Source: a virus. From it: a stretch of DNA of 64,000 bases. The DNA is taken from positions 1 through 64,000 of the IMG/VR virus record IMGVR_UViG_3300045740_000163, one strand, 5' to 3'. The position numbers and the translations under genes were made by a program. Below the pieces are notes generated by a model. That model was not told where the DNA came from. It worked only from the letters and a program-made list of their open reading frames with translations, and searched no databases. This document shows, piece by piece, positions 6,135 through 60,300 of the stretch. Position 1 is the stretch's first letter; each line of letters opens with the position of its first letter.

Positions 6135-6938
6135 TTAAATTTTTGTCCCTGGGCTAAATTTGCGCACCATGTTACGCACACCTTCACCAAGCACACCGTA
6201 TATAGAACCGTAGTTCGGAACATACCTTAATGACTTCCCTCGGTAGCTGAAGCGGACCGGGGCGCCCATCTGGCCAGGAACGCCGGAGTAACGAGTTTCC
6301 GTGAAACTTTGACAGTAGATAGGGTAGTGATACACCCACGCGGCACGAGAGCCTGAGGTGTCGTTAGTTGGGTTAGTAAGCGAAGGAGAGGCAACCGTGG
6401 GGTGAGTAACTCCCCCGCCGGTGATACCCCCTCCGTCTATCGTGTTGTCGTTTGAACTAGGTGTTTGGAACGGAGAGTAGACCTGGTTATCAGGAATCTG
6501 CTCGCCATACCAAGTGTGCGTACCGAAGTTACGCAGACCAGGCTCAGGGCCGTAAGCAGTCTGGACACTCGCGTTAGCGTTGGTGTAGATACCCTGCGCA
6601 CGAAAACCGACATAGCTATCGAGCAACCCAGATGCGTGAGGCTGGGTATTCTGATAGTTTGTCCAGTAACCAGAAACTGCAGGCGGTACTGCGCGCCAAT
6701 CCGTAGTGAAATAACCGCTGATATTCGGCGGACCTACAGGAATACGCCCAAAATCAGCACCTTCATCGTTGACTCCGAACCAGGTTTGTTGGACACCAGA
6801 CGGAGGAACATATCCACTCGAAACAACTAAATAGGTATCCGTCAGGTCCAGGTTGTCGCCTGTGCGCTGAGGTCCAGATTGAATCGGGTGATAGAGGTTT
6901 TTATCGTATTTCCAATTAGTTTGCGGTGCGTATACCAT
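6135..6938 (-). CDS. Virion-like protein, unknown family
   Basis: 267 residues rich in Tyr, Gly, Pro, Asn and Ser, including a YGPEPG segment and a GGGITGGGVTHPTV linker. The C-terminal 60 residues are more ordered and basic (YRGKSLRYVPNYG, VRNMVRKFSPGTKI). It lies directly upstream of the capsid gene on the same strand. No enzyme motif is seen. Composition and position suggest a virion component such as a head fibre or connector. Confidence 0.7.
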   Translation of the reverse strand: MVYAPQTNWKYDKNLYHPIQSGPQRTGDNLDLTDTYLVVSSGYVPPSGVQQTWFGVNDEGADFGRIPVGPPNISGYFTTDWRAVPPAVSGYWTNYQNTQPHASGLLDSYVGFRAQGIYTNANASVQTAYGPEPGLRNFGTHTWYGEQIPDNQVYSPFQTPSSNDNTIDGGGITGGGVTHPTVASPSLTNPTNDTSGSRAAWVYHYPIYCQSFTETRYSGVPGQMGAPVRFSYRGKSLRYVPNYGSIYGVLGEGVRNMVRKFSPGTKI

Positions 6939-7001: not shown

Positions 7002-7337
7002 ATGTCCTCGCACGTTGAGAGAGCCCTTACAGTGTTTTTCGAAGATCCTGAAGCTTCTATCGCCTGTTTCTCAGGTTCGATAACGGAAAGTTTGACGCAC
7101 CCACGCGGCATTAAAAAAGTTATTCCGTACTTAATTAAGGCATCAATCGTCGGCTACATGCTGGCTACCTTTGTCAGCCCCGCCATCGAAGAGCGGTTTA
7201 AACTCACAAAAAATGAGGCCATAGCGACCTCATTTATTATTGGTTACGCAGGAATTCGAATTTTGGCAGCAGCGGAAAGACTTGCCGAAAAGGAATTCGA
7301 GCGCAGATTGGGAAAGAAAGAAGACGATATCAGCTGA
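7002..7337 (+). CDS. Holin-like small membrane protein
   Basis: 111 residues. An amphipathic N-terminal half leads to two hydrophobic segments (about 45-63, IKASIVGYMLATFVSPAI, and 75-92, ATSFIIGYAGIRILAAA). These are separated by a short charged loop and followed by a highly charged tail (EKEFERRLGKKEDD). This two-segment plan with a charged C-terminus is that of class II holins. It is a lone plus-strand gene in the minus-strand head block. A weak Shine-Dalgarno (AAGG) lies 5 bp before ATG. Alternative: another small inner-membrane protein. Confidence 0.5.
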   Translation: MSSHVERALTVFFEDPEASIACFSGSITESLTHPRGIKKVIPYLIKASIVGYMLATFVSPAIEERFKLTKNEAIATSFIIGYAGIRILAAAERLAEKEFERRLGKKEDDIS

Positions 7338-7498: not shown

Positions 7499-7524
7499 GA
7501 AAAAAGCCTCCCGTTTTGGGAGGC
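7499..7524 (-). terminator. Intrinsic terminator after the scaffold-like gene
   Basis: GCCTCCC (7506-7512) pairs with GGGAGGC (7518-7524) around a 5-nt loop, and the minus-strand reading continues into TTTTTT. It is 25 bp beyond the stop of the 7550-8473 gene. Confidence 0.9.
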
Positions 7525-7549
7525 TGTGAACTTTAGCGTTTTGAAGCTA

Positions 7550-8473
7550 TCAGGCAGGGTCCATGAAGAGGAGCTTGCTGCGCATAGCTTCAGGGCCCAT
7601 CTGCTGCAGAACACGCCAGGCGTTCTCGGGGCTGCGATTCATAACATCGCTGAACTGTTCCCACTGTTGCTGGGGAGCTGCACCCATGGCAGAACCACCG
7701 GCGTTGGCCGGAGGAGCGGGCATGTCATAGCGAGGCTGATAAGCCTGGGCCTGCTGCTCGTAAACACTGGTCTCACCATCGATGTCCACGGGGACAACCT
7801 CCGTGAAGTAACGATCAGTGTAGTTAGCCAGATGATCAGGATCAGTCAGGATGATCTGCATCGCGTCGTGGCGAGCAGCCAGAGCGTCCATTTGCTGAGC
7901 TTGATCGATCAGAAGATCTTCAAGCGAGCAGGCATACTGATTCAGAATGCCAGGAGCTTCGATCCCGAAGTGATTAACGACCTCGGCGGTTACGGGACTT
8001 ACGCTCGTTTGCGGGTCCGTAGAAGTTTGCGAGGAAATTTGGGTCGGTGAAGCGCTGGTATACGAGGTCGGCGCTACCTGCTGTTCCTGATAAGCCCAGG
8101 GTTGGGCCTGTAAATTCTGACTGCTCAGTTGAGTAGCCAGTTGCGTAGTTGCCTGGTAAGGCGACTGTTGAGCCGGGCTGAGGGATTGAGGATTGACCTG
8201 CGTCAGCACCCGCTCCAGGGTACCCATCGCTGCTTCCCAAGGATTGCTCGGGGAGGATTGCGACGTTAACGGGTTGAACTGGTTGCTGATAGAAGGGGCC
8301 GAAGCCTGTTGTACCTGCGACGGCGGTTGGGCTGTAGGTACCGAAGCTACCGCCGGGGTAGAGGTTTGCGCCACCCACTGCGGGTAGGCGGTTGAGCCCT
8401 GGTCCGAGGATACCGCCGGGGCTGCCGCCGGGGAGACCGGGCTCGGGGTCGAAGCTTGGATCTGCTGGCTCAT
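7550..8473 (-). CDS. Scaffold-like head assembly protein overlapping the portal gene
   Basis: 307 residues. The first ~160 are disordered (Gln, Ser, Pro, Thr). From about residue 164 (VVNHFGIEAPGILNQYACSL) a helical domain follows, with LLIDQAQQMDALAARHDAMQ and an acidic stretch (LTDPDHLANYTD), then a short Pro/Gly tail. This disordered-plus-helical plan and the slot between portal and capsid genes fit a scaffolding or head-assembly protein. The first 500 nt overlap the 3' end of the portal gene in another frame. The ordered domain begins almost exactly where the portal ends and has no usable Met of its own before residue ~193. A downstream start at residue 83 (8227) would shorten but not remove the overlap. 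Confidence 0.65.
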   Translation of the reverse strand: MSQQIQASTPSPVSPAAAPAVSSDQGSTAYPQWVAQTSTPAVASVPTAQPPSQVQQASAPSISNQFNPLTSQSSPSNPWEAAMGTLERVLTQVNPQSLSPAQQSPYQATTQLATQLSSQNLQAQPWAYQEQQVAPTSYTSASPTQISSQTSTDPQTSVSPVTAEVVNHFGIEAPGILNQYACSLEDLLIDQAQQMDALAARHDAMQIILTDPDHLANYTDRYFTEVVPVDIDGETSVYEQQAQAYQPRYDMPAPPANAGGSAMGAAPQQQWEQFSDVMNRSPENAWRVLQQMGPEAMRSKLLFMDPA

Positions 8474-10199
8474 AGCTACCCGAGTAAGTTAGTTCTTCCG
8501 CGAGGTGGTCGAATGTCCTGTAAAGGAGCGGAGTTATGTTCAGTCTAGGATCAGCCGCAAGTGGCTGATTAGGCGCAAGGGGATGCGGCGACTGCAACAT
8601 CTGGCTTAATAATACCAGAAATTGTTGCATTGCTGATTGAGTTTGCTGCACCATGCGGAAGGGGAAACCCTTCAACATCTCAGCTCTTTCAGAGTCAGTC
8701 TTTTCAGGAAAAAGGAATTTAAGAGCTTCAACGCTGTCCACGCCAAGCTCTTGCAAGTTACGAACAACGATCGACTTTTGGTTGATGTCGTACGCTGTGT
8801 CTTCGTAAACATCGCCCTGGTACCTATAAGTAACAGTGCGATCCCCGTCTTCAGGTAAACCGATGACGCCAGGAGGGACTTTATTTTCCTGAAGCGAAAG
8901 TTGAATAGTTTGAGTGACTTTGGCTTCAAAGCGAGAGAGCGCTTTTTGATATTTCTCTACACTTTCTTCGGTTTGCTCTTTCGGAGGGCTTGGTTCTTTA
9001 AGTCCAGCTGCAGCGATAAACGATTCGCGGAAAATAACTTCCTGGTGATAGATCATCATCTCTAGGAGACGATTGAATCCATAAGTAAGGAAGCTTTTGT
9101 TCTTTCGAAGAGCCGTGGCCTGAGCACGACCCATCAAACCTTTAATTTCAGTTGCGGTCGCACCTGCGGAGATTGAAATTTCATCAACCCCGCCGAGAGC
9201 TGTTCTAATTTCCTCTCGCAGCAGAAGCGCATACCGGTTCATGTCTCCATTAACCGGATCCGGGGTCATGTAACCCACGCGGTCAGAAGGCTCAACGTTC
9301 GCGATAATGCGAGGAACGCGCAAACCGCCTCCCATCCCAGCCCCGAAAGGCTCGCTTACGCGTGTCGAAGGGCTATCGACTCCCGAAAAACCGCTTTGAC
9401 TGCTGATTGTCGGCCTAAAAGTGCTTCCTGAATCGCTTGCTTCGACCAGATCGCTCCTAGGACGCGAACTAATCAGCGTAGGATTGCCAAAAAACTCAAT
9501 ATTCTTAGCAATATTTCGAGTGAGCTCGTCGTGGAGCACAATTTGCTCCATAAACGGATCAAACTCACCCTCTCCCTCGGTACCGCTCGCGTTTGGCTTG
9601 TTTAAAACCTCAACAGCGGGAATAAAGCCTAAGGTATTGGGTCGCTTTCTGGCTGGAGTGAGGATAGAACCCGGCTCTAGATCAAAACTAAGCTCAGTAT
9701 CAGTCTCAACCTCACTAATTTCGTCAGCAGTTATAGCTAAACGAACATACCGCTTGTTTTGCCCGTAGCTATTGCTGGGTAAACCAAGATTCGCGTTCTT
9801 GACTTTGTAGCTATAAACAATAATTACTTCCTCAACCTCACCATTTACATCGTGGTACACACGATATTGGTTTTTGTTGAAGAAATAAATCTGATATTTG
9901 AGCTTTGGGTCTGGGCGGAAGTAAAAAAGCCCACAGCCGTCAATTAAAAAGTTGCGAATTATCGCAGGAAAACGAATATCTAACTTATTTAAAGCAATTA
10001 CATCATCAAGAAAACGAGTACGCCCCTTAAACGTATCCTGGTCACAATAAAAAGTAAGACCCTTCTTAATCATCAGAAGGGTCATCTGTTGCAGATGGCT
10101 CAAAACAACCATGGTCGATGCCTGGTTGCTTCGATCTTGAGTGCGCGATGCCTCTAAGATCTCGTTGAACCTTTTCCTAGTTTCAGTCGAGCTGGCCAT
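7974..10199 (-). CDS. Portal protein
   Basis: 741 residues. The N-terminal 550 residues have the portal pattern: helical start, FYFRPDPKLKYQIYFFN followed by a beta-rich wing region, a central disordered loop (residues 260-300), a long helix (MGRAQATALRKNKSFLTYGF, about 355-375) and further helices resembling the stem and crown. The last ~170 residues are Gly/Pro/Ser-rich and overlap the 5' part of the scaffold-like gene in a different frame. Gene order terminase - portal - scaffold - capsid supports the call. It would form the dodecameric DNA entry channel of the head. Confidence 0.75.
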   Translation of the reverse strand: MASSTETRKRFNEILEASRTQDRSNQASTMVVLSHLQQMTLLMIKKGLTFYCDQDTFKGRTRFLDDVIALNKLDIRFPAIIRNFLIDGCGLFYFRPDPKLKYQIYFFNKNQYRVYHDVNGEVEEVIIVYSYKVKNANLGLPSNSYGQNKRYVRLAITADEISEVETDTELSFDLEPGSILTPARKRPNTLGFIPAVEVLNKPNASGTEGEGEFDPFMEQIVLHDELTRNIAKNIEFFGNPTLISSRPRSDLVEASDSGSTFRPTISSQSGFSGVDSPSTRVSEPFGAGMGGGLRVPRIIANVEPSDRVGYMTPDPVNGDMNRYALLLREEIRTALGGVDEISISAGATATEIKGLMGRAQATALRKNKSFLTYGFNRLLEMMIYHQEVIFRESFIAAAGLKEPSPPKEQTEESVEKYQKALSRFEAKVTQTIQLSLQENKVPPGVIGLPEDGDRTVTYRYQGDVYEDTAYDINQKSIVVRNLQELGVDSVEALKFLFPEKTDSERAEMLKGFPFRMVQQTQSAMQQFLVLLSQMLQSPHPLAPNQPLAADPRLNITPLLYRTFDHLAEELTYSGSYEPADPSFDPEPGLPGGSPGGILGPGLNRLPAVGGANLYPGGSFGTYSPTAVAGTTGFGPFYQQPVQPVNVAILPEQSLGSSDGYPGAGADAGQSSIPQPGSTVALPGNYATGYSTEQSEFTGPTLGLSGTAGSADLVYQRFTDPNFLANFYGPANERKSRNRRGR

Positions 10200-59187: not shown

Positions 59188-59550
59188 ATGACACAGCAAC
59201 ACCCCATCACCCCACCACCGGAGCTGGTGCAGCAGTGGGACTGCGAATGGAGGGAGCAGCAAAACGCCCCAGTTATCGGCTGGTCGGCCAATCTTCTTGC
59301 CTATGTCGCTGCTCGCGCCGCACAATGGGGCGCCGACCAGGAACTGGAGGCGTGTTGTGAGTGGCTTCACTGGCAAAACCTGGCCACACATCCCGAACTG
59401 ATCCCTTCGCTCCGCGCCGCCCGCCGCCCCAAGGCACCGAGCTTGAAGGAACAGGCGCTTGAGATGCTTGAGAACGCTTGGGAAGGTGGGCACGTCAACA
59501 ACAACGCCGCCCAAACCATCCGCCGCGCCCTGGAGGCTCTCAATGACTGA
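59188..59550 (+). CDS. GC-rich island protein 1
   Basis: 120 residues: PPPELVQQWDCEWREQQNAP then a helix YVAARAAQWGADQELEACCE and a C-terminal helix (LEMLENAWEGGHVNNNAAQT-like). Related to the 60025-60300 protein (shared Q-W-x-x-E-W ... A-A-x-A-A-x-W-G-A). I recall similar proteins in cyanophages and marine or freshwater Synechococcus. Confidence 0.6.
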   Translation: MTQQHPITPPPELVQQWDCEWREQQNAPVIGWSANLLAYVAARAAQWGADQELEACCEWLHWQNLATHPELIPSLRAARRPKAPSLKEQALEMLENAWEGGHVNNNAAQTIRRALEALND

Positions 59551-60028
59551 TTACAAAGCAACGTCCGATCAGTGGAATCAAGTTCAGCGATGTGCCGATG
59601 TAGTTGGCAGCTCTGATTGCTCTGCAATTCTTGAACTCCGCGCCAGGATCGAGATACTAGAGGCTGCAGCTAACAAGCACATCGTCGAAACCAATTCCAA
59701 CATCGTGGCCTTGGCGAGCCGCGTCGAAGCGCTGGAGGCTGTCAAGCGCCCAGCATCAAAGGTCTACGAGATCAGCGAGCCGCTGAAGTTGACGCCTGAG
59801 CAGGCGCAACAGGTCAGGGATCTGCTCGCACCCAACTCCAAGCCAATTCCTAATTCCTCCCAAATTAGGAGTTCGCTGGTGGAGCGGGTGCAGGGCGCGA
59901 TCCACGATGTGGAGTTCCCACACGGCGACGACGAAGCCCGCGCCGCGATCCGCGAGGTGGCGGCGTGGTTGGACGAAAACACCGGCGGTGACGCCGCCTG
60001 GATGCTGACGCAGGAGGCCAAGCGATGA
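59543..60028 (+). CDS. GC-rich island protein 2, coiled coil
   Basis: 161 residues from ATG 59543, which overlaps the upstream stop (ATGACTGA). A coiled coil (LELRARIEILEAAANKHIVE) is followed by LTPEQAQQVRDLLAP and a C-terminal module DDEARAAIREVAAWLDENTG, AWMLTQEAKR. Modules of this kind are common in cyanobacterial phage islands. Confidence 0.6.
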   Translation: MTDYKATSDQWNQVQRCADVVGSSDCSAILELRARIEILEAAANKHIVETNSNIVALASRVEALEAVKRPASKVYEISEPLKLTPEQAQQVRDLLAPNSKPIPNSSQIRSSLVERVQGAIHDVEFPHGDDEARAAIREVAAWLDENTGGDAAWMLTQEAKR

Positions 60029-60300
60029 CACGCCTACTTTCACCACCCGCCAAAATCATCCGCCAGTGGGAAGCCGAATGGGACACCAACGGTGCCGCCC
60101 ATTGCGACAGCGTTCTCTACATCGCCGCCAAAGCTGCAACCTGGGGCGCGAAGGCTGCCATTGAGTGCGCTCTCAGGGACACCGCTTCATGCCACTGGCG
60201 CGTTGCTGATGGCCCTGAAGATGGAGTGCAACTGGTGCGTGCCAGTGATCTGGTGGCTTGGGCTGCTGCCATCGGCAAGCGTTATGAGGTTGAAGAATGA
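60025..60300 (+). CDS. GC-rich island protein 3, paralogue of protein 1
   Basis: 91 residues: PPAKIIRQWEAEWDTNGAAH, YIAAKAATWGAKAAIECAL, resembling 59188-59550. ATGA overlaps at both ends show a co-translated chain. Function unknown. Confidence 0.6.
   Translation: MTRLLSPPAKIIRQWEAEWDTNGAAHCDSVLYIAAKAATWGAKAAIECALRDTASCHWRVADGPEDGVQLVRASDLVAWAAAIGKRYEVEE

Follow-up and report, generated by a model that had tools for sequence, protein, structure and literature searches.

Gene organisation of the locus

The window, by which we mean the whole stretch of DNA that was analysed (64,000 nucleotides, positions 1 to 64,000 of IMG/VR record IMGVR_UViG_3300045740_000163), carries a portal gene followed on the same strand by a scaffold-like gene that starts within it and is read in another frame (Table 1). 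An earlier note, made from the letters alone, had described 500 nt shared by these two genes in different frames, and this proved exact to the nucleotide, with the second ORF in the +1 frame. The low-complexity composition that it had seen in the shared segment, Gly/Pro-rich in the portal and Gln/Ser/Pro-rich in the second protein, was also found as described.

The portal identity of the 741-aa ORF was borne out by both profile and fold comparisons. Matches were obtained to the portal families phrog_64 (7e-5) and phrog_104 (0.003) and to phrog_20475 (virion structural, 2e-167), with no match in Pfam. The best 50 listed matches of the predicted structure in the PDB were all portals or portal complexes, with E-values down to 8e-9. 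The AlphaFold2 models were built from an alignment without the sequence of Synechococcus phage S-EIV1, a relative described below. For the portal, mean pLDDT was low (55.6), as expected given much disorder. The predicted core comprises residues 1-572, with the last core helix ending at 572, and is followed by a low-confidence, apparently disordered tail (residues 573-741; block-mean pLDDT 23-53).

Three further elements were observed around these genes. A 267-aa ORF (6135-6938, minus strand) lies between the scaffold-like and major capsid genes; no function was assigned to it, and it was matched in 71 sequences of the clade of the window (clade 1) and in no locus of the other clades. On the opposite strand, in the gap that separates the scaffold-like gene from the structural gene after it, sits a 111-aa holin-like ORF (7002-7337, plus strand; phrog_2359, 1e-5), which is antisense in 75 clade-1 sequences. 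Finally, a terminator-like hairpin of the intrinsic type with a T run (7505-7525, minus strand) is found 25 nt past the scaffold-like stop codon and possibly marks the end of a portal-scaffold transcript.

Table 1. Features of the portal-scaffold region in window coordinates.
Feature	Position	Strand	Details
Portal gene	7974..10199	-	741 aa, ATG; ORF list
Scaffold-like gene	7550..8473	-	307 aa, ATG; +1 frame relative to portal
Dual-coding overlap, 500 nt	7974..8473	-	Four-fold-site diversity and codon-phase equalisation
Major capsid gene	6052-4937	-	phrog_1357, 5e-23
ATG start of scaffold-like gene	8471..8473	-	ATG in 80/80 clade-1 loci
In-frame TAA closing the +1 frame	8489..8491	-	15 nt upstream of ATG; 79/80 clade-1 loci
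Portal tail motif IPxPGST, portal residues 671-682	8154..8189	-	Conserved, inside overlap
Scaffold-frame motif NPW[E/Q]xA and predicted short helix, residues 77-92	8198..8245	-	Alignment of 76 sequences, AlphaFold2
C-terminal helical hairpin, scaffold-like residues 267-304	7562..7675	-	AlphaFold2, outside overlap
Constrained synonymous sites with excess RNA folding (portal codons 520-575)	8475..8642	-	Upstream of scaffold start
Near-invariant hairpin TGCAACA-ATT-TCTGG-loop-CCAGA-TGTTGCA	8593..8629	-	Clade 1, within upstream region

Conservation of the overlap among relatives

The sole match among 50,697 phage records was the cultured Synechococcus phage S-EIV1, with 42% portal identity. Three IMG/VR searches, centred on the window, on S-EIV1 and on a third group, gave 442, 598 and 134 confirmed matches (sets that may overlap), and 80 loci were taken per search. 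Four of the five matches in a genome collection belonged to the third group, and a small fourth group was made up of four loci (L243, L244, L246 and L247). Including the window, 80, 81, 64 and 4 loci could be measured in clades 1 to 4, respectively.

The +1 overlap was intact in all 229 measurable loci, i.e., those in which the portal stop was present, across the four clades, and thus reached clades at about 42% portal identity, S-EIV1 included. Its length, taken as the distance from the start codon to the portal stop, ranged from 446 to 641 nt. Over its whole length the overlap was free of +1-frame stops in all relatives (229/229); relatives with such a stop were what the earlier note had named as evidence against its reading. 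One locus (L177) seemed to be an exception, but the stop that it carries falls within the core of the portal and leaves the overlap untouched; the locus was set apart. Some contigs of this phage group (L163-L167) were found in bins labelled as bacterial (Crocinitomicaceae, Rhodobacteraceae, Blastopirellula, and others), labels that probably reflect binning contamination and not hosts.

We also scored how often other frames stay open when portal amino acids are held fixed and synonymous codons are resampled. In representatives of clades 1 to 3, the +1 frame remained open by chance in 0.1-4.4% of resamplings (0.75% for the window) and the third frame in 0%. The GC-rich clade 4 was an exception, with an open +1 frame in 61-81% of resamplings. 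Given these frequencies, the open +1 frame of a single sequence is only moderately surprising, but its retention in all 229 measurable loci goes beyond chance.

Selection on both reading frames

Synonymous-site diversity dropped strongly over the overlap. In clade 1, diversity at portal four-fold sites fell from 0.61 (codons 1-500) to 0.21 (overlap; p 8e-44), and that of the scaffold frame from 0.52 outside to 0.20 inside (p 1e-19). The portal-frame drop was repeated in clade 2 (0.55 to 0.12) and clade 3 (0.60 to 0.26). These p-values take alignment columns as independent although the sequences share ancestry and are only indicative, so that the argument is carried by the size of the effect and its repetition in three clades. 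Codon phases were equalised as well, from 0.15/0.08/0.53 to 0.21/0.12/0.24, and the third-position excess of each gene vanished in the overlap. Synonymous constraint was strongest in the overlap and weaker upstream of it in clades 1 and 2.

As judged from these comparisons, purifying selection keeps both frames, which upholds the proposal that two disordered tails are overprinted here in different frames. The partition of constraint between them was not apparent, as conservation in the two frames was uncorrelated (Spearman 0.13, p 0.11). Codon usage gave no clear decision on which frame is older (portal 0.00 and scaffold -0.05 per codon, errors 0.02).

A scaffold-like protein between portal and major capsid genes

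The second protein was predicted to be disordered over residues 1-159, with the exception of a short helix at residues 78-92 (PWEAAMGTLERVLTQ; nt 8242-8198) that had been overlooked in the earlier note. A long helix follows (residues 176-210) and then the C-terminal helical hairpin, which is the best-predicted part of the protein (pLDDT 72-85 for residues 271-300); mean confidence of the model was low (47), as expected with so much disorder. With disorder extending to residue ~159 (nt ~7997), the ordered domain does begin near the portal stop, as had been suggested. Judging from the AlphaFold2 boundaries, the overlap thus starts where the order of the portal ends and stops where that of the second protein begins.

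Position, architecture and the C-terminal hairpin make an internal capsid scaffold the most likely identity of this protein. The gene lies between those for the portal and the major capsid protein: in 65 loci of clade 1 and 66 of clade 2, the capsid gene comes after it in the same orientation (the flanks of clade 3 loci are mostly short). However, no credible match was obtained in PHROG, Pfam or the PDB, and none to a known scaffold, so that the scaffold function is unproven. Of the two names given earlier, portal is confirmed and scaffold is inferred. Because the scaffold assignment draws on position and architecture, there is also a reading in which dual coding is real but the scaffold-like gene encodes a different protein of the head, be it a minor capsid, an internal or an ejection protein. 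We consider it improbable, though it is the most serious competitor: the size of the protein, its disorder, its long helix and C-terminal hairpin, and the place of its gene after that of the portal and before that of the major capsid protein are all scaffold-like.

Start codon and mode of translation

The start codon of the scaffold-like gene is invariant inside each clade: ATG in clades 1, 2, and 4 and GTG in clade 3. It is preceded by AAGGAG in all 145 loci of clades 2 and 3 and by a GGAG/GAGG-type site in clade 4. No Shine-Dalgarno sequence (AGGAG, GGAG or GAGG) was found upstream of the start in the 80 loci of clade 1. The +1 frame is closed by a stop 3-15 nt before the start codon in all but one sequence, of clade 1, where the distance is 66 nt. 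A start mapped downstream of 7974 was the other observation that the earlier note had counted against its reading; the only start codon compatible with the constraint is the conserved one, at the upstream edge of the overlap. The second Met of the ORF lies 254 nt ahead of the portal stop and was considered as a start; it is near-universal in clade 1, but it is replaced by Phe in S-EIV1, and is thus more likely a helix residue.

These observations bear on the earlier suggestion of a +1 frameshift. If it were programmed, the second ORF would have no start of its own and would be made as a portal-scaffold fusion. The second ORF is indeed offset by +1 from the first, and its frame continues well beyond the portal stop. 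Nevertheless, with the conserved stop 3-15 nt before the conserved start, a frameshift upstream has hardly any space in which to occur, and +1-frame constraint begins at the start codon, which would confine a shift to the last few codons before it. With a perfect Shine-Dalgarno sequence in every clade-2 and clade-3 locus in addition, we regard frameshifting as very improbable, and independent internal initiation at the conserved start as the most likely mode of translation.

A constrained region upstream of the scaffold start

Constraint extended beyond the overlap into the preceding part of the portal gene, spanning about 170-260 nt before the start in clades 1 and 2. Four-fold diversity in this region was 0.28 in clade 1 (0.61 in the portal body; p 9e-12) and 0.30 in clade 2 (0.55 in the body). 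Clade 3 showed no such upstream constraint (0.61 vs 0.60). Predicted folding of the region was more stable than that of synonymous shuffles, with the lowest mean z-scores at -2.8 (clade 1) and -3.7 (clade 2); around the clade-1 start itself, the shuffles folded more stably than the real sequence (z +1.4 to +1.5). Covarying pairs were scant, with only two pairs in clade 1 and five in clade 2 changed on both sides, and the exact fold is for that reason not established.

Another ORF was considered as the source of the upstream constraint and rejected for clade 1, where no other frame is open throughout; this exclusion is less clean in clade 2, in which both a third frame and one on the antisense strand are free of stops in many sequences. 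A search for a sigma-70 promoter in the element gave no full match, and the resemblance of TGGTATTAT to an extended -10 was not counted as evidence. Our reading is that scaffold expression may depend on an element that acts in cis here, either as RNA or in transcript processing.

That RNA structure alone accounts for the constraint, with the +1 frame untranslated in the overlap and the second gene starting downstream as in the S-EIV1 record, which places it after the portal stop, is scarcely credible: in clades 1 and 2, constraint and excess folding do extend to sequence before the ATG, in which no second protein is encoded, but clade 3 is constrained in the overlap (0.26) without being so upstream, the folding excess dwindles at the overlap edge, and the open +1 frame comes with a conserved start, Shine-Dalgarno sequences and protein motifs.

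Proposed model and its implications

We favor an account, with a probability of roughly 0.85, in which the second gene of a genuine long out-of-frame overlap has its own start, both frames are under selection, and the second protein is most likely a scaffold. Ribosomes would initiate independently at the ATG at 8473, which lies in the 3'-terminal part of the portal gene, and read the +1 frame. The 307-aa product would have a disordered N-terminal half (166 aa) that overprints the disordered portal tail and an ordered C-terminal half encoded past the portal stop. The short helix in the disordered half may dock a partner, and the C-terminal hairpin would likely bind the major capsid protein.

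Overlapping genes of this kind could be taken, as in the earlier note, to couple portal and scaffold levels. In the procapsid of P22, a dodecameric portal (12 copies) stands against roughly 250-300 copies of the scaffold (PMC12005531), a stoichiometry that argues against simple 1:1 coupling. A separate start, possibly together with the upstream element, would fit better, as equal synthesis would not serve P22-like copy numbers, whereas separate initiation would let the amount of scaffold differ from that of portal. More tentatively, and at somewhat less than even odds, the 3'-terminal third of the portal gene may hold three layers: the portal, the N-terminal half of the scaffold in the +1 frame, and an upstream RNA, processing or promoter element that lifts scaffold output above that of the portal in clades 1 and 2 and takes the place of the Shine-Dalgarno sequence in clade 1.

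The analysis thus documents, in a tailed phage, a long and deeply conserved out-of-frame overlap of two genes, both of which should be essential if the head is to be assembled; environmental relatives of the lineage number in the hundreds. It corrects the annotation of S-EIV1, the only cultured relative found, and offers a natural test case both for the evolution of two disordered protein segments on shared DNA and for how portal and scaffold amounts are set when one gene begins within the other.

Comparison with known systems

S-EIV1 (KJ410740; AHV82224, AHV82225) has the same gene pair and the same +1 overlap as the window. Its scaffold-like ORF of 325 aa runs from an ATG at 59287 to 60264 of KJ410740 (L001:7748-8725) and covers the portal gene over 554 nt. 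In the record, the second gene begins only at 59863 (133 aa), 23 nt past the portal stop, and both genes are labelled as hypothetical. By comparison with its relatives, the annotated start is 576 nt too far downstream, leaving out 192 residues and the overlap.

In phage lambda, the scaffold Nu3 is produced by internal initiation within another head gene, C, in the same frame, and corresponds to the C-terminal part of C. Here, on the other hand, two different frames are used, and they specify unrelated sequences. In P22 the scaffold gene adjoins the portal gene, and no long out-of-frame overlap is known between them. The scaffold-like protein has no detectable sequence match to P22 gp8, but resembles it in length (about 300 aa) and, by prediction, in helical character and a C-terminal helical hairpin. 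In gp8, which has 303 residues, the coat-binding helix-loop-helix comprises residues 271-300 (PMC9965877).

No description of an out-of-frame portal-scaffold overlap was found in the open-access literature, searched partly with narrow phrases. Same-strand overlaps of two real genes are frequent in viruses, the commonest being of 4 nt, and the longest near-identical overlap common to phage families measures 185 nt (PMC7017920). By contrast, the overlap described here measures 446-641 nt and is kept across clades with only ~42-50% portal identity.
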